Source: a virus
IMG/VR virus record: IMGVR_UViG_3300050821_007019
Span: 1-39,931 of that record
DNA: 39,931 nt
Strand: one strand, 5' to 3'
Shown: one piece after another, positions 19,516 through 38,517 of the stretch
How positions within the stretch are numbered: the stretch's first letter is position 1
How the letters are laid out: every line of letters starts with the position of its first letter
The notes under the pieces: generated by a model
What the model was told of the DNA's origin: nothing
The model's input: only the letters and a program-made list of their open reading frames with translations
Database searches by the model: none
Program-made: the position numbers and the translations under genes

Positions 19516-21737
19516 CGTTTTCCGAACCTCTCGTGAACCCACGAGTCCACAGCTATAGGCAAGTCTGATGCCCACGCCGGCCGCGTCGTCATCACCTTCA
19601 CCAACCGCTCTTTTGAGTAAGAGCCTTTGGGCACGTCGAGGCATACCTCGTCATGGACGTGAAGCGCTATGGCAGTCCGCTCGTGGAGCGGCAACGTATC
19701 GAGGTACGCCTTGATCGCCGGCACGGTGAGTGTGTCCGCGTGTAGGCGCCGCATAGCGGCTCTGAGTACGTCCGCGGCAATGGCTTGAACCATGTTTTCC
19801 ACGAACAGGCCGCTCCACGCTCTCTCGCGTCGCCAGCCACGCCCGCGTGCGGTCGCATAGGTCATGTACGAACTTGTCCACGGCTCACCTCCGTCGGGGT
19901 CAATGATCGACTCGGTCTTCAGCTCCGGGTTCGCGTACAGCAACCTGCGCCCGCTCGGCAGCTCGATCACGAGGAACGTGCCCGTGCAGAAGATCTTGCA
20001 CCGGCCGACGTTGTAGACCGCGTCGTCCGGGGACATGATGGCGTTCTTCACCGCGACGTCCACGTCCTTGCGCAGCCGGTCGATGGCGGCGTTGGTCGTG
20101 CGGTACGCCTGCTTCAGGACGTCGCACGCCATGTACACGACCCGCTCCAGCCCGAAGTCCTCGCCCCGCAGGAACGCCCGCCGCCACGCCTTCTCCGCCT
20201 TCCACAGCTGCTCCGGCGTCGCCGTCGGCAGCACCAGATCCGCGAGCGGGTCGAGGTCGAGCTGGTACGTGATCGCCATGTTGACCAGCGCGCTCACGCC
20301 GCCGCCGAACCCGAACGCCAGGATCATCACCTTGCCCATCTGGCGCTCGGTCTCGTTCACGTCCTTCGGGTCCTTGCCCAGGATCTTCCCGGCAAGGATG
20401 CAGTAGACGTCCTTGGCCGGGTCCCCGTGGGAGGCGAACGACGCCTCGAACTGCGCGAGCTGCGCGGTCTCGCCGGCGATCCAGGCCGTGACCACCGACT
20501 CGATGTTCTTGAAGTCGCCCGCCATCAGCTGGCCGGCCTTCGAGATGATCACGTGCCGCATCGCGAGCGAGCACGCCTCGTACGGGCCGCCGTAGATCAG
20601 GGGCTCGTTCAGTGCGGCGTTGGAGTAGATGCCGGGGATGATGACATCATCGATATATGCTGCCTTAACTGGCTGCAGCTCAATCCGTCCCGCATGTGCG
20701 TGAGTGTCGGGTCGTCGGACACGGAGAGTCGGGCGAGCCATGTTATGCGGCTGGAACCCGCGCCCGCTGTGACGGCCCGTACGCCCCGCACCGTTCCACC
20801 GGCACCAATGGCGGATGCAGTCTTCGGGGCCAACCAGACCCAGTCCCCGCTTGTACTTCGAACCAGCACTTCGACCGGCTTCGAGTCGCTGTTCGAGAAG
20901 CAGTCGAGTAGTTGGGTCAAGGTCGTCATGCTCTAACCATTCCGTAACTTCAGAGGCGCGCAGCGACTCGATGTTGATCTTGCTGTGCTCTCGGAGCCAC
21001 TGGAGGAGTCGGTCACGCTGAGTAGCAGCGTGCACGGCCCCGCCGGTCGCGCCTGATATTTTAAGGTCGCTCTCAATCTTCGCTCGGCTAAGAAATCCGA
21101 CAGCTGCTTTCGCGAGCGGCTTATCGAAGCCGAATCCCCGGCCGTTAACGAGCTGATCCAGCCACCAGTCGCGCAGAGTGTCATCCCGATAGTTCGAAGT
21201 CGGGAGGGCTCTATCGATGGCCCGTAGAGTTTCAGTGTCGCGAAGTGCGTACTCACAAAACTTCTTCCAATCATCGGGACGCTCCCAGGGTTCAATGAAC
21301 TTGTCACTAGCGCGCTGCGGGATGCAGAACGTGTCGATCAGCTTGTAGTCATCACCGGTCAGCTTGCGCAGGTGCTCCGGCAGGTTGCATACGGCGCCCA
21401 GCGACTCCAGCGAGCCGGGCAGCGCGTGTGCGTTCGCCTTCGCCATCGTGCACTGAAAACGTTCCACCGGAACATTGATATTCAAACACCGTAGTAAAAT
21501 CAATCTATCAAACGCTGAATTATGCGCCACCAGCACTACTTCTGGATCTTGCGTCGCCGCCCAGAAATCCTCTGGGGGTATCGTATCTTTCCATGGCTCC
21601 CAGATCTTCGCTGGGCCCTCCTCGAAGGCGTAGGTAACTATGAGGCATTCGGCATTTCGAGTGTACAGGTCCGTGCCGTCGGATATATCGACACGACTTC
21701 TCGTCTCAGTATCAACGAAGAGACGTCTAACGGCCAC
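19512..21737 (-). CDS. family A DNA polymerase with 3'-5' exonuclease domain
   Basis: 741 residues; GTG start inside the 3' end of the HNH gene. Exonuclease: LFVDTETRS (Asp9, Glu11) and HNSAFDRLILL. Polymerase: GAGRTGRHSGRGFQPHNMARP, motif A GDFKNIESVVTAWIAGE (about residue 405), motif B RQMGKVMILAFGFGGG (about 460-475), motif C HVHDEV (about 694). This is the phage PolA subfamily found with DUF2815 and DUF2800 genes. Acts as the replicative polymerase. The catalytic motifs are intact. Confidence 0.9.
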   Translation of the reverse strand: MAVRRLFVDTETRSRVDISDGTDLYTRNAECLIVTYAFEEGPAKIWEPWKDTIPPEDFWAATQDPEVVLVAHNSAFDRLILLRCLNINVPVERFQCTMAKANAHALPGSLESLGAVCNLPEHLRKLTGDDYKLIDTFCIPQRASDKFIEPWERPDDWKKFCEYALRDTETLRAIDRALPTSNYRDDTLRDWWLDQLVNGRGFGFDKPLAKAAVGFLSRAKIESDLKISGATGGAVHAATQRDRLLQWLREHSKINIESLRASEVTEWLEHDDLDPTTRLLLEQRLEAGRSAGSKYKRGLGLVGPEDCIRHWCRWNGAGRTGRHSGRGFQPHNMARPTLRVRRPDTHAHAGRIELQPVKAAYIDDVIIPGIYSNAALNEPLIYGGPYEACSLAMRHVIISKAGQLMAGDFKNIESVVTAWIAGETAQLAQFEASFASHGDPAKDVYCILAGKILGKDPKDVNETERQMGKVMILAFGFGGGVSALVNMAITYQLDLDPLADLVLPTATPEQLWKAEKAWRRAFLRGEDFGLERVVYMACDVLKQAYRTTNAAIDRLRKDVDVAVKNAIMSPDDAVYNVGRCKIFCTGTFLVIELPSGRRLLYANPELKTESIIDPDGGEPWTSSYMTYATARGRGWRRERAWSGLFVENMVQAIAADVLRAAMRRLHADTLTVPAIKAYLDTLPLHERTAIALHVHDEVCLDVPKGSYSKERLVKVMTTRPAWASDLPIAVDSWVHERFGKR

Positions 21738-22119
21738 GCAGATACTCCACGAGGCGCGAAGCGATGACGATGCTGTCCTTCATCAGGCCCAACGTGGTGT
21801 TGCAGTTGCTGCAAAGCCAACCGCGAAATGTGTTAGTCAGATGATCGTGATCCAAATGGAGTGCGCGCTTCCCCGGCGGGGAACCGCATACCTCACATCG
21901 TTCTGGGCAGGGGCGTGTGGGTTCAGGCATGCCGGCGTAGCGGCGGCGTAAAGAGCGCGATCTGTCGCGGTTACGTTGATGCCACTTTCGCTGCAGCTCG
22001 CGCGCATGCGGCCTGTCCAGCCTACCGCGCATGGCGCTGTTGCTGATGCCTAGCGCGCGAGCGGCGGCTCGAATGGACGGATACTCCATTCCGTTGTAAT
22101 TAAGAGGCCGAGGCTTCAA
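21727..22119 (-). CDS. HNH endonuclease, endonuclease VII-type, upstream of polymerase
   Basis: 130 residues; TTG start in a TTGA overlap. N-terminus has a helix-turn-helix-like segment (YPSIRAAARALGISNSAMRGRL) like those in HNH/GIY-YIG homing enzymes. The nuclease core has CEVCG, LHLDHDHLTNTFRGWLCSNCNTTLG, matching the recombination-endonuclease-VII family. Probably a free-standing homing endonuclease inserted immediately before the polymerase gene, whose GTG start it overlaps by 11 nt. Paralogs lie at 32729 and 37341. Confidence 0.85.
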   Translation of the reverse strand: MKPRPLNYNGMEYPSIRAAARALGISNSAMRGRLDRPHARELQRKWHQRNRDRSRSLRRRYAGMPEPTRPCPERCEVCGSPPGKRALHLDHDHLTNTFRGWLCSNCNTTLGLMKDSIVIASRLVEYLRGR

Positions 22120-25375: not shown

Positions 25376-25559
25376 CGTCTACCTTCGGTAGCTGACACTT
25401 CGCGACGAGCGCGCGCTTCACGGACTCAAGGTCCGGGTGATCGATCCAGGTTCCTTCAGGCGTAGCCGGCGAGGGCGGCGCCTTCAGCTGCGAGCCGGTG
25501 AACTGCGTCGCGCGAACGATGCGCGGGCCGCGCTTGTTCCAGAATCCGCGGAGACTCAT
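25365..25559 (-). CDS. small hypothetical protein
   Basis: 64 residues from the ATG at 25559 (ATGA overlap with the HNH stop), preferred over the in-frame start at 25571. Sequence GFWNKRGPRIVRATQFTGSQLKAPPSPATPEG.. is compact and basic. Overlaps the DUF2800 gene by 11 nt. Unknown function. Confidence 0.65.
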   Translation of the reverse strand: MSLRGFWNKRGPRIVRATQFTGSQLKAPPSPATPEGTWIDHPDLESVKRALVAKCQLPKVDGGR

Positions 25560-25984
25560 GCGGCTCTCCATTGACGTAACAGCTTCGAGCGCCTTCTAGC
25601 GTCGGCGATGACGTGGTTGTCCGTCCTAGTCTTCTCAACGTGTTCAAGCTCGGTCAGCGGCTGCAGATTTTTTACGCAGTGGCGGCCGCCAAGCCTCAAC
25701 GGGATCTTGTGATCGACATCGTGACCGCAGAGCACAGCGCTGTTGAAGATGGCTTGGAATTGTTCATTGGTACAACAACCGCATCGCTGTTGAAGTTTCA
25801 TGGCGCGACGCTTAGCTTCGTTTGCTCTTCCCTTCTCCGGGTGCGCCTTGGCCCAAGCCAAGTACCGCGCCAGCGCTCTCTCCGGGTGCGCCTTATCCCA
25901 AGCGGCGGCGCGTCGTCGCACTATCTCTCGGTGCGCTGCGGCCCAAGCCCGATGACTTTTGCGCCGTTTCTCCGGGTCTCTCAT
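25556..25984 (-). CDS. HNH endonuclease (classic HNH type)
   Basis: 142 residues. The N-terminal half is repetitive and basic, with copies of W-x-K-A-H-P-E (AWDKAHPERALARYLAWAKAHPEKGRANE). The HNH core reads CGCC, VDHKIPLRLGGRHCVKNLQPLTELEHVEKTRTD. It differs from the endonuclease VII-type genes in this window. Likely a mobile free-standing endonuclease inserted between the metallopeptidase-like gene and its neighbour, with ATGA overlaps on both sides. Confidence 0.85.
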   Translation of the reverse strand: MRDPEKRRKSHRAWAAAHREIVRRRAAAWDKAHPERALARYLAWAKAHPEKGRANEAKRRAMKLQQRCGCCTNEQFQAIFNSAVLCGHDVDHKIPLRLGGRHCVKNLQPLTELEHVEKTRTDNHVIADARRRSKLLRQWRAA

Positions 25985-29171: not shown

Positions 29172-29186
29172 CTACGTCACACTTTG
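29172..29186. repeat. 15-bp direct repeat, copy 1 (recombinase 3' end)
   Basis: CTACGTCACACTTTG, identical at 32724-32738. Here it holds the last recombinase codons and stop. A 15-mer match in 40 kb could be chance; both copies at ends of mobile-type genes with untranslated spacers beyond make it worth noting. Confidence 0.5.
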
Positions 29187-29963
29187 AGCGGATTTCCATA
29201 GGGTCGGGTCTACCAAGGGCTCGATTTGACGTAATACCAAGGGCCCGCCCGGCCGCGCCAGGGGCCGCAGGCGCCGCCCGTCCTGGGCCCCCGTCCGGGT
29301 GAGGGTGGCGCCCCAGGCGAGCCGGCCTGCGTAGCGAGGGTTCGCCAGGATCCTCTTTACAGCATTGTGGTGCCAGCGGGGCCCTCGGGGGCCGGGTATC
29401 CCCTCCCGGTTCAGGGTCCGTGCGATCTCGGCAGGCCGCGCGCCTCCGGCAGCCGTGGCGTAGATCCGGCGGACCACGCCCGCCTCGCCCGGCCCGTAGC
29501 CGTAGCACTTGCCGCCCGTAGGTTTGCCGGCGAGCGCCCGCCCCTCCATGCCGCGGCGGGTGCGGTAACTGATCTGCTTGCGGTACGCGGCCGCCATAGA
29601 CCCCATCACGGCCCCTAAGATCTCCGCGGAGTCTTGGCGGGTGTCCAGGTCGCGCGTCACGACGTGCACGCCGATGTCGGACAATTCCGCGAGCCGCGGA
29701 GACTGCTCGGCCATGTTACGCCAGAGCCGCGACGTGTCTTCAGCCAGAATCACCTCGAAGGCGCCGGCTCGCGCGGCCGCAAGGCACGCCTGATACCCAG
29801 GGCGGGCAGTCTTGCCTCCAGAGATAGCTCGGTCCTCGAACCGTGCTACTACCTCGAACTCGCGAGCGAGCTGCTGGCAAACACGAAACTGATCCTCGAT
29901 AGAGGATTCGCTCTGCCGGTCCATCGAGTAGCGCGCGTAAATCGCGGCCTTCATATTGGTCAT
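29172..29963 (-). CDS. serine recombinase (resolvase N-terminus plus recombinase domain), short form
   Basis: 263 residues from the ATG at 29963 (GAGGAG upstream); a GTG at 29978 is alternative. Catalytic domain: AAIYARYSMDRQSESSIEDQ with nucleophile Ser13, FEDRAISGGKTARPGYQACL, VILAEDTSRLWRN. Recombinase domain: GGKCYGYGPGEAG, REGIPGPRGPRWHHNAVKRILANPRYAG. It stops right after this domain (LVDPTLWKSAQSVT), lacking the zinc-ribbon and coiled coil of large serine integrases, so it is about half the usual length. Role could be genome integration, inversion or mobile-element movement. Confidence 0.85.
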   Translation of the reverse strand: MTNMKAAIYARYSMDRQSESSIEDQFRVCQQLAREFEVVARFEDRAISGGKTARPGYQACLAAARAGAFEVILAEDTSRLWRNMAEQSPRLAELSDIGVHVVTRDLDTRQDSAEILGAVMGSMAAAYRKQISYRTRRGMEGRALAGKPTGGKCYGYGPGEAGVVRRIYATAAGGARPAEIARTLNREGIPGPRGPRWHHNAVKRILANPRYAGRLAWGATLTRTGAQDGRRLRPLARPGGPLVLRQIEPLVDPTLWKSAQSVT

Positions 29964-30057
29964 CGATGCTCTCCTCACGTTGTTTGTCGGTGCTGAACCT
30001 GGCGTAGATGGCGGCCCGTGTGCGCGGCGGCTCTACTTGCAAAGAGTTTGATCGCAT
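29950..30057 (-). pseudogene. recombinase N-terminal fragment preceding the intact recombinase
   Basis: ATG at 30057 with a strong GGAGG Shine-Dalgarno 8 nt upstream opens MRSNSLQVEPPRTRAAIYARFSTDKQREESIDDQYE, a second recombinase N-terminus including the catalytic Ser22. The frame then leaves recombinase sequence and runs as a shadow to 29740. The intact recombinase starts at 29963 in another frame, inside the codons for ESIDDQYE, and repeats the same motif (AAIYARYSMDRQ). This looks like the joint of a recombination between two recombinase genes. Confidence 0.7.
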
Positions 30058-32723: not shown

Positions 32724-32738
32724 CTACGTCACACTTTG
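32724..32738. repeat. 15-bp direct repeat, copy 2 (HNH 3' end)
   Basis: Identical to 29172-29186. Here it holds the last codons and stop of the endonuclease VII-type gene plus five bases of the following 60-nt spacer. Confidence 0.5.
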
Positions 32739-33070
32739 CGAAGGTACTCGATTGCGCGCTGTAGGCCCGGAATGTTGTCACCGAGCTTGCCGAGCCTGGT
32801 GTTGCAGGTTCGACATAACCATCCCCGAAAACGGCCCGTGACGTGGTCGTGATCCAGACACATCGCGCGCCGGCCGCAACCAAGTTCACATAATTCCGGC
32901 TTCGGGCGGGTGGGCCCAAGTTTCGCGTATCGACGCGCCAGGATTCGGGCCCGCTTAGCTGGGTCAGCGTGATATCGTGCGCGCTCTTGTGCGTTGACCT
33001 GAAGTCTACGGGGTGCGCGGAGCGCCGCCTGACGCGCCCTGTATGCCGCGTCAGCCTTGTGCCGAGACAA
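32729..33070 (-). CDS. HNH endonuclease, endonuclease VII-type
   Basis: 113 residues; TTG start directly after the previous stop. Basic N-terminus, then core CELGCGRRAMCLDHDHVTGRFRGWLCRTCNTRLGKLGDN, ending AIEYLRKV. Paralogous to the genes at 21727 and 37341. The first Cys pair (CELGC) is spaced differently from CxxC in its paralogs. The last 15 bp with the stop (32724-32738) are shared with the 3' end of the serine recombinase. Confidence 0.8.
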   Translation of the reverse strand: MSRHKADAAYRARQAALRAPRRLQVNAQERARYHADPAKRARILARRYAKLGPTRPKPELCELGCGRRAMCLDHDHVTGRFRGWLCRTCNTRLGKLGDNIPGLQRAIEYLRKV

Positions 33071-33313: not shown

Positions 33314-33498
33314 CAGTGTCCGCTCCTCTTGATTGCCTTTCGGTCGTTCGCGTGGAAGTTCGTCTGCGTAGCGCTCAGCTGGAACTGCGCCGGCGCGCCG
33401 CACTTCTCGCACTCGACGGTCGGTTTTCGGTCGGCCAGCGGCACGAACACCGCCGTGACGTGGTTGCACTGGCTGCACGCATATTCAAACACGCCCAT
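33313..33498 (-). CDS. FmdB-like zinc-ribbon protein
   Basis: 61 residues. FEYACSQCNHVTAVFVPLADRKPTVECEKCGAPAQFQLS has two CxxC knuckles 21 residues apart, as in FmdB/CxxC_CXXC_SSSS regulators. Probably a small zinc-binding transcription or RNA-polymerase-interacting factor. Overlaps the HNH gene end by 14 nt. Confidence 0.75.
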   Translation of the reverse strand: MGVFEYACSQCNHVTAVFVPLADRKPTVECEKCGAPAQFQLSATQTNFHANDRKAIKRSGH

Positions 33499-33715
33499 AG
33501 GCTTTTCTCCATTCGCGAATATGATGTTGGTCCCGCGCCGTTTTCGCGCGATGGGCGGCGGGTGAAAGAATCTGCAGATTCTTCAAACAGTGCGCGCCGC
33601 CCATAGCGAGCGGCGTGCGGTGATCTACTTCAGCGCTCAGAAGCTGCGCGGCTTTATACCGAACGCCGCTGTGCCCGCGCTTACACGGACGGCCTTGGTA
33701 CCGCGCCTCATCCAT
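33485..33715 (-). CDS. short HNH endonuclease
   Basis: 76 residues. RYQGRPCKRGHSGVRY then VDHRTPLAMGGAHCLKNLQILSPAAHRAKTARDQHH, the H-N-H core. It is nearly only the core, so it may nick poorly or need a partner. Inserted between the sigma-like and zinc-ribbon genes with overlaps on both sides. The HNH core resembles the one at 25556. Confidence 0.8.
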   Translation of the reverse strand: MDEARYQGRPCKRGHSGVRYKAAQLLSAEVDHRTPLAMGGAHCLKNLQILSPAAHRAKTARDQHHIREWRKAYGRV

Positions 33716-34977: not shown

Positions 34978-35111
34978 CCAACCAACTCCGCGCGATTAAA
35001 ATAGTGAAGCGCGAGCATTACTCCTTCGCGAGAGTCGCTAAGCGCACCGATACCCATATATTCCAAATGCTGAATGCGTTGCGCCTCAGTTCTTTTACGC
35101 GAGGTCTTCAT
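34974..35111 (-). CDS. 45-residue small protein
   Basis: ATG at 35111 inside the helicase 3' end, with AAGAGGA upstream; ends in an ATGA overlap with the next gene. Sequence MKTSRKRTEAQRIQHLEYMG then GALSDSREGVMLALHYFNRAELVG. Basic N-terminus and one helix. Unknown. Confidence 0.7.
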   Translation of the reverse strand: MKTSRKRTEAQRIQHLEYMGIGALSDSREGVMLALHYFNRAELVG

Positions 35112-37344
35112 GTATCCTCTTAAACTGCCACCGGATGCCGAGCGCGCAGTCGCCGGCGTGCACGAGCTTGTGGCCCGCGCCGATCTTATCGCGGCAGCTG
35201 CGCAGCCAGTACCCGATCTTCATGGTGCTGTTGGGCTCCGCGCAGCCGGCGCTGATCATCGCGTTGGTGATCGCGCCGTCCTGGTCGCCGATCCCGCCGG
35301 GCACCCGCGCCAAGTCTCCCGCCACGAACGGTCGCTCGCCGAACTGCGCCGCAAGCAGCTTGAACGCCGCCCGGATCGAGCGCGACTCGTCGTCCGTCTC
35401 GTGGTCCTGCGTGATCACAGGGTCGGGCAGCCCCAACCACACCAGCGGCTCGCGACAAAAGTGCGACCACTGCACGAAACTCGGCATCGGCACCGGCATC
35501 CCGGTTACGCCTTTGGCGGCATGGTACGCCTTTATGACGGTCAGGGCATCAATCAACAACTCCGCGCGGTTCGCCATCACGTACGCGCGCAGGTCGGGCA
35601 GCTTGAAGACGCGCTCCTTCATTCTTTCGGTATTCGCATCCATCCGAACCACAAGGCTCCGTCGTGCCAGATCAGACACAGGCGTAATGTTGTTGCCGGA
35701 TCCAACGAGAACCATCTTGTTTGAAACTCCCAGGCTCTCGCTCTCCCCCAACTTACGATCCGTCCACGTAGAGCTGGTGATAAAAGCGCATAGCTCAGGC
35801 GAACGAACCTTGTGACCATCGGGAATGTTGTCAAACCAAAGCGAGCGGTCCCCAGCGAGTACTGCTGCGTAAAGGGCCTTGCGAATCTCATCGCCATCTC
35901 CTACCCACGCCCGAAGCGCCGGGTCACTGCCATGTACAATGCGTGCGGCCATCTCTTGGAGGAGGCCCTTGCCGGTGCCGGAGCTGGGGGCGTCGTAGAA
36001 GTACATGGGGCTGCAGTCGATGGCGAGGCGCGCGGCCTCCGTGAGTATATGAGATAGGAAAGCGGCTTCGCTGGCGGCCTCCTTCCAGGGAAATTGATCG
36101 AATACTCCACGAATGCGTCCGAGTGCGTCTCGCGCACAATCTCGATCAGGCGCTGTTGGGATGGCGGGGTAGGCGGCGCTTGGAACGTAAAGAACTCGCG
36201 TGCGATTATCGTATCCTGGCTTGTCACAGATGCTCCCATCAGGCCGAATGAACGGCGCGCGTGCGATTGCTTCGAGCGGCTTGATCTTTCTCCAACTGCC
36301 CAGGTTGAAGAGCGTGTTCGGGTGCTCGGCGGTCGGGTCCACGTTGTACCACGTCTGCTTCACGGGCGCGTACCGCTGCCAGTCCGCCTTCTTGCCCAGC
36401 TCCGTGCGCAACCACGCAGGCGTCGTACGAACCAACATCACCGCGTCGCTGCTGCGCCGGATCTCGCGGTCGTCGTGCCCTTGGTGCAGGCGCGTGAGGT
36501 GCGGGCCCTGTGAGTAGATCTCCGGCGCGATGATCTCTTCCAGCTGCGTGATGATGTGGCTGAACATACCCTCGATCAGTCTAATGATCGGCTTCGTGGG
36601 TGCGGGCGCGAGGACACTATCCGCCCCTGTCCCTGTATCGCCACCGTCAGGTCCGTCGGATCCGCCGGCGCCGTCAGCCTTCCCTCCCGCGCCAGCTGCT
36701 CCTTCGCCTGCTGCCGCGCTGTCTTCACCAGCTTGAGCACTATCGCTACCACCCGGTACCGGTCCGGTGACCAGCCCGAAGACAGACGGATCTGAACGTC
36801 GTCCCCAACCCTCACCCTTTGCAAGATTGAAGATGTGTCGGAAATCAGTGCGGGGGGTTTGCCGCGCGTGCTGCTCCCACCACGCCTCTGGAGCGCCGTC
36901 CGTAAATCCAGGGGCTTTTTTCGAGAGGTCGATGAAGAGTTGCCGCGCGGGGCGCGTGCCTTGGAGACTGAGTAACGCATAACCTACCTCACTCCAGCGG
37001 TCGTTGGATCCTAGTGTTGGAATCAGCGCGCGTATGGCGTCGAGCAGGCGCGGCCACTCCTCGTCGCTTATCTGTGTCAGGGTCTCCTGGTTCGACGTAC
37101 CCTCCGAAGCCTGAGCAGTTTGGGTCGCGTTCGTCGAGGAGGGCTTCACAGCTGACCATTTCGCTTCGAGGATCTCCCATATCTGATTGACCTGAGCCAG
37201 CGTCAGCGTCGGCAGTGTCTCGGGTAATCCAGGTGACCACTGATAGCGGACGCCGCTGGGGTGGGTGCCGGCCGCGACTAGCTGTTGTCCATCTCCGAGC
37301 AACTCCAATAAGCCGCCCGTCATTTTTATTTGGCGTTTCTTCAT
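35095..37344 (-). CDS. prim-pol C-terminal half, PriCT-2 and SF3-like helicase
   Basis: 749 residues. Residues 1-35 (KKRQIKMTGGLLELLGDGQQLVAAGTHPSGVRYQW, written in parts: LLGDGQQLVAAGTHPSGV with His28) are the second half of an AEP prim-pol domain. A PriCT-2 domain follows (residues about 95-180: RLLDAIRALIPTLGSNDRWSEVGYALL..FRHIFNLAKGEGW). After a Gly/Ala/Ser linker (about 195-245) comes the helicase: WYNVDPTAEHPNTLFNLG, Walker A DAPSSGTGKGLL (about residue 455), Walker B SLWFDNIPDG (about 505). The first half of the primase is encoded at 37757, beyond an HNH gene. ATGA overlap with the HNH stop. Confidence 0.85.
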   Translation of the reverse strand: MKKRQIKMTGGLLELLGDGQQLVAAGTHPSGVRYQWSPGLPETLPTLTLAQVNQIWEILEAKWSAVKPSSTNATQTAQASEGTSNQETLTQISDEEWPRLLDAIRALIPTLGSNDRWSEVGYALLSLQGTRPARQLFIDLSKKAPGFTDGAPEAWWEQHARQTPRTDFRHIFNLAKGEGWGRRSDPSVFGLVTGPVPGGSDSAQAGEDSAAAGEGAAGAGGKADGAGGSDGPDGGDTGTGADSVLAPAPTKPIIRLIEGMFSHIITQLEEIIAPEIYSQGPHLTRLHQGHDDREIRRSSDAVMLVRTTPAWLRTELGKKADWQRYAPVKQTWYNVDPTAEHPNTLFNLGSWRKIKPLEAIARAPFIRPDGSICDKPGYDNRTRVLYVPSAAYPAIPTAPDRDCARDALGRIRGVFDQFPWKEAASEAAFLSHILTEAARLAIDCSPMYFYDAPSSGTGKGLLQEMAARIVHGSDPALRAWVGDGDEIRKALYAAVLAGDRSLWFDNIPDGHKVRSPELCAFITSSTWTDRKLGESESLGVSNKMVLVGSGNNITPVSDLARRSLVVRMDANTERMKERVFKLPDLRAYVMANRAELLIDALTVIKAYHAAKGVTGMPVPMPSFVQWSHFCREPLVWLGLPDPVITQDHETDDESRSIRAAFKLLAAQFGERPFVAGDLARVPGGIGDQDGAITNAMISAGCAEPNSTMKIGYWLRSCRDKIGAGHKLVHAGDCALGIRWQFKRIHEDLA

Positions 37345-37760
37345 ACACGCTCCAAATAGGCGACGGCGCGATTCGCGGCCGCGACGGTATCACCGAGCAT
37401 CCCGATGGCGTGATTACAGGTCGCGCATAACCAACCACGAAACTCACCAGTAAGATGGTCGTGATCGAGCGCCATAGACTTCTTGCCATTGGGTGGACCT
37501 CCACAACACTCGCATAAGGCGGGACATGGGCGGCTAGGGGCGGGGAGCGTGCGTCTGCGCACAGAGTCACGAACGCTAGTTCGACGCGCCTCTCGATATA
37601 CCGGATCTGATCGATATCTCTGCGCTCGGGCGGCCTCGTAAGCGGTCTTGCAGGCTGCGCAAGACGCTTTGGTCTTTTCTCCGTGCGGACAGCAGGCTCG
37701 CGGTTTATATCCTAGCCGCTTGCGCTGATACTCTCGCATTTGATCTCGTGTGTACGTCAT
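37341..37760 (-). CDS. HNH endonuclease VII-type gene splitting the prim-pol gene
   Basis: 139 residues. N-terminus has a CCPHGEKTKASCAACKTAY cluster; core CECCGGPPNGKKSMALDHDHLTGEFRGWLCATCNHAIGMLGD. Probable free-standing homing endonuclease. It is joined by ATGA overlaps to both primase halves, so it replaced no linker and no intron sequence is visible. This is the same family as at 21727 and 32729. Confidence 0.9.
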   Translation of the reverse strand: MTYTRDQMREYQRKRLGYKPRACCPHGEKTKASCAACKTAYEAARAQRYRSDPVYREARRTSVRDSVRRRTLPAPSRPCPALCECCGGPPNGKKSMALDHDHLTGEFRGWLCATCNHAIGMLGDTVAAANRAVAYLERV

Positions 37761-38191
37761 TCTTTCAGCCTAAATAACAAGAGGCACTTACCTGAATTTT
37801 CACGCCAGCGTTTTGGTAGCGGGCCTGTGGTAGCCTCAATCATGCGTACGATCTCTTCAGCCTTCTCCCGGTCTTCAACATCTATATCCAGAGCATACAC
37901 ACCGCTGATCGGGCCAGTCCTGATACAGATATTCAGGCGCCGGTCAGCCGTCCACAGCTGTATCTCGTTGCTTAGGATCGGCCGCTTCTGCCAATCAAGC
38001 AGGCCATGCGCCTCGCCAGCATGATTGTACTGACTGGGCAGTTTGCCGACTTTTCCAGCCAGCGCACTCCCCCTAACTACCTTGACGTCAGGGCCGGCCG
38101 GCACGCATGGAAGTAAATTTGATCCTAGCCCTAATACAAAGTCGAACCAAAACCACTCGTCCGCTGTCGCGCCGCGCTGTACATCGCTCAT
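37757..38191 (-). CDS. N-terminal half of AEP prim-pol (primase-polymerase)
   Basis: 144 residues. FDFVLGLGSNLLPCVPAGPDVKVVRGSALAGKVGKLPSQYN and LLDWQKRPILSNEIQLWTADRRLNICIRTGPISGVYALDIDVEDREKA match prim-pol N-terminal regions; Asp102 and Asp104 are the metal-binding DxD. It ends LLLFRLKE, where intact relatives continue into a LRKRQ-like stretch; that stretch opens the 749-residue protein beyond the HNH gene. The two proteins must associate for activity, or this half is nonfunctional. Confidence 0.85.
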   Translation of the reverse strand: MSDVQRGATADEWFWFDFVLGLGSNLLPCVPAGPDVKVVRGSALAGKVGKLPSQYNHAGEAHGLLDWQKRPILSNEIQLWTADRRLNICIRTGPISGVYALDIDVEDREKAEEIVRMIEATTGPLPKRWRENSGKCLLLFRLKE

Positions 38192-38517
38192 CCGAACCTC
38201 GTGCTGTTGAACTCAATCGGCACATTGTGCTGGCGCATCACGAACTCTTTTCGCCACTGCGCGCCCTCGTAGAACTTCAGGTCGTTCATCGCGTCTATGT
38301 GCCGCCGCACGTCCGTATCAATGCTTTTGGCGATGGCCTCAATTGCGGGCCGCAGTATGCGCGCCTCGAAATGGTCCAGCGACATCATCGCTTCGCGAGC
38401 GGTGAACCTGATGTCTACCCAAGTTTGCTTCGGCGCGACCAAGAGCTTCGGCGCGAGCGCCGCAATCGCAGCGGTGCCGGCGAGCAGCTTGAAGAAGTTA
38501 CGTCTATTCATAGTCAT
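38188..38517 (-). CDS. Tat-signal protein, possibly capsid-derived fragment
   Basis: 109 residues. N-terminus MTMNRRNFFKLLAGTAAIAALAP has the twin-arginine motif R5-R6-x-F-F-K-L and a hydrophobic region. The remainder (WVDIRFTAREAMMSLDHFEARILRPAIEAIAKSIDTDV) reminds me of the N-terminal segment of P22-type coat proteins, which read like DITFTxxExxLSxDDFxERxLxPAMxxLAxxID. That similarity is from memory. Function unknown; export through Tat would be unusual for a phage early protein. Confidence 0.6.
   Translation of the reverse strand: MTMNRRNFFKLLAGTAAIAALAPKLLVAPKQTWVDIRFTAREAMMSLDHFEARILRPAIEAIAKSIDTDVRRHIDAMNDLKFYEGAQWRKEFVMRQHNVPIEFNSTRFG

Follow-up and report, generated by a model that had tools for sequence, protein, structure and literature searches.

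A viral primase-polymerase gene split by HNH endonuclease genes at a conserved cysteine codon, with probable reassembly of its two parts

Can a primase-polymerase whose active site is divided between two polypeptides still work, and how does such a division come about? The question is raised by the virus record IMGVR_UViG_3300050821_007019 of IMG/VR, a stretch of 39,931 nucleotides referred to here as the window, in which a primase gene is split by a nuclease gene. The locus lies wholly on the minus strand and consists of three open reading frames (ORFs), with the coordinates and reading frames given in a first-pass annotation of the sequence. ORF1 (37757-38191, 144 amino acids) encodes the N-terminal portion of an AEP Prim-Pol and ends in LLLFRLKE, an HNH gene (37341-37760, 139 amino acids) encodes a probable homing endonuclease of the endonuclease VII type, and ORF3 (35095-37344, 749 amino acids) starts with MKKRQIKMTGG and encodes the remaining Prim-Pol domain, a PriCT-2 region and a D5-like helicase of superfamily 3 (SF3). 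All three are chained by ATGA overlaps at both borders (37760-37757 and 37344-37341). We consider it likely that this is a gene in pieces created by a homing endonuclease, with a Prim-Pol that is split at one codon (site A), two halves that reassemble non-covalently and a junction that has spread by homing.

The two outer ORFs carry consecutive parts of one domain. ORF1 matches the Pfam Prim-Pol profile PF09250 above its cutoff (E 8.7e-7, 30 bits against 22.8), although over positions 18-103 of 158 only, and the rest of the domain is picked up in ORF3 by the DNA primase profile phrog_1156, which aligns to ORF1 with columns 16-125 and to ORF3 with columns 135-287. The first-pass annotation had placed the DxD metal motif in ORF1, where motif I is indeed found (D102-x-D104; 37880-37888). 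It was also right that ORF3 continues the same domain, but it assigned the second catalytic motif to ORF3, whereas motif II lies in ORF1 as well (R128-x-R130 to S133-x-K135; 37787-37810) and ORF3 contributes the third, with the acidic residue E14 (37303-37305; E166 in the intact relative L010) and the conserved H28 of GTHPSG (37261-37263; H180 in L010). Further downstream in ORF3, profile matches indicate a weak PriCT-2 region (36847-37041; PF08707, E 1.1e-3, under the curated cutoff) and then the SF3/D5-like helicase core with the Walker A motif GTGKG (35461-36267; phrog_10537 and phrog_19930). As the same annotation had noted, exactly one endonuclease VII-type HNH gene lies in between, with ATGA on either side and without spare intron sequence: it matches PF02945 (Endonuclease_7; E 2.3e-15, 56.7 bits, residues 82-137), its His-Me finger/zinc motif (CxxC..DHDH..CxxCN) is intact as CECC, LDHDH and LCATCN, and the 412 nucleotides from the stop of ORF1 to the start of ORF3 are HNH coding sequence throughout. 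Its product is a putative site-specific nuclease, apparently encoded without an intron or intein.

Searches of viral contigs, together with one of bacterial genomes, yielded 18 relatives with the same primase-helicase; queries with alignments retrieved relatives from the viral contigs, and ORF3 as the sole query retrieved none. Most encode a single uninterrupted protein of 850-913 amino acids across the split point (L002, with 913 amino acids, L010, L011, L012, L013, L015, L018, L020, L090, L091, L097, L100 and L180), to which both ORF1 and ORF3 align directly, and the 144-residue protein was found as a complete stand-alone protein in none of the relatives. Another relative, L003, is uncut at the window's site and then reaches the end of its contig. 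Overall, site A is uninterrupted in 16 of the 19 clade members and likewise in more than 60 more distant Prim-Pol loci (roughly 30-42% identity). Since most relatives are uninterrupted at site A, the split is the derived state. That the primase is split is confirmed far beyond chance, because 13 relatives encode both parts in one frame and two other genomes are cut at the identical codon. Sampling of this primase-helicase in these collections looks near exhausted, since the last three scans added L180, a member from a bacterial bin, alone.

The three genomes that are cut at the same cysteine codon carry different nuclease genes. The window has the endonuclease VII-type HNH gene, while L019 and L095 have genes of a phrog_3322-type HNH family, which are mutually related (66% over 110 amino acids) and show no significant similarity to the HNH gene of the window; the L019 gene matches phrog_3322 and has no Pfam match. 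The first ORF terminates with LLLFRLEE in L019 and with LLLFRMEGA in L095, and the restarts are at MKKRKLKLDENPRGP and MKKRRLKLDNNPRGP, respectively. An intact site A reads, for example, GAG GAG CCA-TGC-AAG AAG CGC. Where the gene is split, the HNH gene begins at the (A)TG of the conserved TGC codon or right next to it, as in the ATGA overlap with the ORF1 stop in the window (37757-37760), and the ATG of the second ORF takes the place of that codon (37341-37344, overlapping the HNH stop), with an identical junction in L019 and L095. The second ORF begins with TATGAAGAAACGC in the window and L019 and with TATGAAAAAACGC in L095. Moreover, a Shine-Dalgarno-like GGAG or GGGG stands 5-6 nucleotides ahead of this ATG in all three split genes (in the window GGAG at 37350-37353, 5 nucleotides upstream and within the tail of the HNH gene; GGAG in L019 and GGGG in L095).

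A second split position exists within the clade. L001 is uncut at site A; instead, an HNH gene of a third type cuts it at a site B, which falls between HARE and QPRSDF in the PriCT-2 region. The break in L017 is at this point too, but no nuclease is present and the frames meet at TCATGATGCAGCC in a TGATG stop/start overlap. Site B, which is uncut in the window, corresponds to a loop (332-340) between two helices in the model of L010. L017 may represent a split that has outlived its nuclease; alternatively, a small indel may have caused the break. Fission at yet another place is seen in Caulobacter phage SR18 (L007, 4986-7293), where the annotation of a related primase gives two genes, primase and ATPase, that overlap without an intervening nuclease. 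The window itself contains four further HNH-type genes, all on the minus strand. Two of them (21727-22119 and 32729-33070) are of the endonuclease VII type and 44-46% identical to the HNH gene that splits the primase, and the other two (25556-25984 and 33485-33715) resemble the site-B HNH gene of L001. The gene at 21727-22119 overlaps the start of polA; a split of polA by this gene was considered and rejected, since polA is full length. An in-frame insertion of about 126 amino acids, near residues 372-385 of the window's polA, is present in a family A DNA polymerase (L209, 124-2712, minus strand) on the contig of L013 (IMGVR_UViG_3300050821_002518).

How did three genomes come to share one split codon? 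In a tree of the whole protein the window groups as sister to the intact L011 (support 91/90; 98/94 in a helicase-only tree), L095 to the intact L097 (92/94) and L001 to the intact L012 (99/98). In approximately unbiased (AU) tests a single clade of the window, L019 and L095 was rejected (p-AU 1.25e-4), and with it a single vertical origin of the site-A split on the primase tree, as was a clade of L001 and L017 (p-AU 1e-6); a grouping of L019 with L095 was not rejected (p-AU 0.26). The sequence around the insertion follows a different history from the remainder of the protein. In columns 100-180 the window is 64-75% identical to L095 and L019 against 31-47% to L011, L010 and L002, whereas its columns 1-100 and its helicase follow L011 and neighbours. 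In most of six comparisons a maximum-segment test delimited the tract to columns 106-164, beside the insertion, which is at column 160 (p 0.00005 to 0.03 over the six); in the window the tract spans 37760-37885 and is nearer to the split L019 and L095 than to L011, the window's own tree neighbour. Similarly, L095 shares columns 118-215 with L019 rather than with its tree neighbour L097 (p 0.005). Residues common to all three split copies and absent from every intact row occur at columns 118, 142 and 164 only, compared with a mean of 0.04 such residues near the site in comparable triples. This shared mosaic tract resembles the trace expected of homing with co-conversion of flanks; homing, the direction of transfer and the endonuclease activity of the inserted genes are inferred. 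Since the nucleases differ, the simplest account would be that the split junction spread and the nuclease was exchanged; alternatively, two separate insertions would have hit the very same codon, and the flanks would have been exchanged afterwards. Furthermore, because an unrelated nuclease occupies the same slot in relatives and the flanking tract is shared, neither of which the first-pass annotation had noticed, the split junction may already have been mobile when the window's own HNH gene entered it, and would then not have been created by that gene.

Since a sequence search of the PDB with the Prim-Pol profile gave chance matches only, a fold comparison was needed. The Prim-Pol domain of the intact L010 was modelled with a mean pLDDT of 95, and Foldseek returned as top match the prim-pol of pRN1 (ORF904; 1rni, E 3e-6), with 3m1m and 6a9w as further matches and the NrS-1 prim-pol also found; a full-length model of lower confidence (pTM 0.47) matches AsfvPrimPol and D5/E5 helicases. 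The model predicts an AEP fold for this intact relative. Site A maps to a surface hairpin turn between motifs II and III (loop 146-151, with strands 139-145 and 152-155 on either side), and the N-terminus of ORF3, which corresponds to the modelled strands 152-155, 164-168 and 173-177 of L010, belongs to the fold. Together with the uninterrupted relatives and the continuity of the profile match, the confident fold model supports the earlier proposal that an HNH insertion has divided one Prim-Pol active site over two coupled ORFs. Because the cut separates neighbouring strands of the domain, neither piece is likely to be enzymatically active by itself in terms of this model, and priming would therefore need association of both chains. 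In our view, a working primase is probably regained when the two pieces come together.

Among the rival readings (ALTERNATIVES), the one that survives best is that the insertion abolished priming and that only the helicase in ORF3 is still in use, with primers coming from the host or another enzyme. In favour of this reading, two chains share a single active site, the downstream Prim-Pol piece of the window is somewhat diverged, and host primases exist in any bacterium. However, the catalytic residues D102, D104, R128, R130, S133 and K135 of ORF1 and the residues K3, E14, G19, Q21, G26 and H28 of ORF3 show no variation across the 17 aligned proteins, split and whole alike; these include three split copies, which stem from at least two origins. 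Between L019 and L095, which are both split, the ratio of non-synonymous to synonymous changes (pN/pS) is 0.30 for ORF1, 0.15 for the downstream Prim-Pol piece and 0.23 for the helicase, and intact pairs span the same range; the primase half thus appears to be under normal purifying selection. The terminal branches of the split rows in ORF1 (0.37, 0.40 and 0.19) are not lengthened compared with a median of 0.42, and the start codons and Shine-Dalgarno-like sequences are kept at every junction. A search for a DnaG zinc-ribbon gave no match in the window, which has a single match to this AEP and a replication set that also comprises a family A polymerase and SSB-like and SNF2-type proteins. Because of the selection on the primase half, we regard loss of priming as unlikely. 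The first-pass annotation had left the choice between reassembly and loss of priming open; given the purifying selection, the absence of a rate increase, the intact catalytic residues in all split copies and the persistence of the L017 split without a nuclease, the balance leans to reassembly.

A self-splicing intron or a (split) intein could restore a single polypeptide, and HNH genes often reside in group I introns and inteins. Dassa and colleagues are said to have described, in 2009, fractured phage genes in which a homing endonuclease accompanies split inteins, a precedent in which a gene is likewise split around a free-standing nuclease. Unlike in those genes, there are no intein halves in the window, so that no covalent rejoining is expected: the end of ORF1 and the start of ORF3 align straight onto intact primases, with no added residues, which rejects a split intein. 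A group I or group II intron was rejected as well, since the HNH coding sequence fills the space between the ORFs and no conserved RNA core was recognised, with no Rfam match in 37200-37900 even at E <= 5 and none at the gathering threshold in the window, L001, L017, L019 and L095. Readthrough or a simple frameshift linking ORF1 to ORF3 is not plausible either, with three different frames and starts and stops 412 nucleotides apart. Splicing therefore seems very unlikely. Finally, an error of sequencing or assembly, or the chance fixation of an inactive allele in a single metagenome contig, is hardly credible and already largely refuted: although every split copy comes from a metagenome contig, the same junction occurs in three contigs of different IMG datasets, with 55-85% protein identity depending on the region and different inserted genes, and the frames are open throughout.

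The preferred reading, a homing-endonuclease-created gene in pieces, would run as follows. The ancestral state would be a single phage gene whose product joins an AEP primase-polymerase and a D5-like SF3 helicase. An HNH homing-endonuclease gene would have inserted in the conserved cysteine codon inside the Prim-Pol domain, with host bases supplying its start codon and its own tail providing a Shine-Dalgarno-like sequence and an overlapping ATG for the downstream part. By termination and reinitiation, all three ORFs would be translatable from one message, and non-covalent association of the two parts would restore a working primase-helicase. Homing with co-conversion would probably have carried the split junction and its flanks from one related phage to another, and at least one exchange of the resident nuclease would probably have taken place, between the endonuclease VII type of the window and the phrog_3322 type of L019 and L095. 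Several points weigh against this reading. Reassembly and priming are read from sequences and from a fold model. The window's downstream Prim-Pol piece is 67% identical to L011, compared with 90% between L010 and L011, and is without four residues of a variable loop. The pN/pS values are rough, as synonymous sites are near saturation. The permutation and AU tests were made post hoc, on a pattern already seen, and treat sites as independent, and the L017 junction is known from one metagenome contig.

A further-reaching and more tentative proposal is that what moves is the split junction as such: a stop/start slot within an active site that would be passed between phages with its flanks, be taken in turn by unrelated nucleases and be kept after nuclease loss, as suggested by L017 at site B. 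Possibly, the split would then be a lasting inherited architecture and not a transient scar.

The closest precedent is nrdA of Aeromonas phage Aeh1, which is split by the HNH gene mobE and whose pieces form an active ribonucleotide reductase according to Friedrich et al. (2007), as cited in PMC2988022. Both loci are HNH-split genes in pieces. Here, in contrast, the host gene encodes an AEP Prim-Pol, one slot is occupied by unrelated nucleases in different relatives, and a shared tract flanks the conserved split point. In T4-like phages, gene 43A/43B is split with seg43 in phage 25, where the split products are active, and without a nuclease in 44RR, and mobA lies beside gene 60 in T4 (PMC2988022). 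As a replication gene split with or without a nuclease, gene 43 parallels L001 and L017 at site B; however, the T4-like cases concern a family B polymerase or a topoisomerase, thus other protein families, a Seg-type nuclease (gene 43) and another split position. Later papers still cite "at least one" functional split-gene case (PMC8351571; PMC10448857). In motifs, fold and domain order our locus is like the phrog_1156/PF09250 Prim-Pols fused to a D5-like SF3 helicase, with pRN1 ORF904, NrS-1 and AsfvPrimPol as structural relatives, but those systems are one polypeptide and the window has two. A literature search of limited extent found no description of a primase split by a homing endonuclease. 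The present locus would work in the manner of the HNH-split and gene 43 precedents, but differs from them in its enzyme, in that unrelated nucleases have apparently replaced one another at a single codon, in the tract shared around the insertion and in having a second split site within the clade.

Two further features of the window are recorded here. Immediately upstream of ORF1, and joined to it by an ATGA overlap, an ORF on the minus strand (38188-38517) has an N-terminus that resembles a twin-arginine translocation (Tat) signal (PF10518, under cutoff), which is odd for a phage gene beside a primase. Elsewhere, a 268-amino-acid serine recombinase (29172-29978, minus strand) is overlapped by an ORF (29740-30057, minus strand) that starts with a second resolvase-like N-terminus (TRAAIYARFSTDKQREESIDDQYEG) and is possibly a duplication or a frameshifted remnant.

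So far, studies of genes split by homing endonucleases are few, and how the pieces form one enzyme has been called an open structure-function question (PMC2988022). Annotation pipelines are liable to label such primases as truncated. The clade described here shows one enzyme whole, split with one nuclease, split with another and, at a second site, split with or without a nuclease. Whether two chains rebuild an AEP active site, whether the split or the nuclease came first, and whether nucleases are exchanged can thereby be tested directly.
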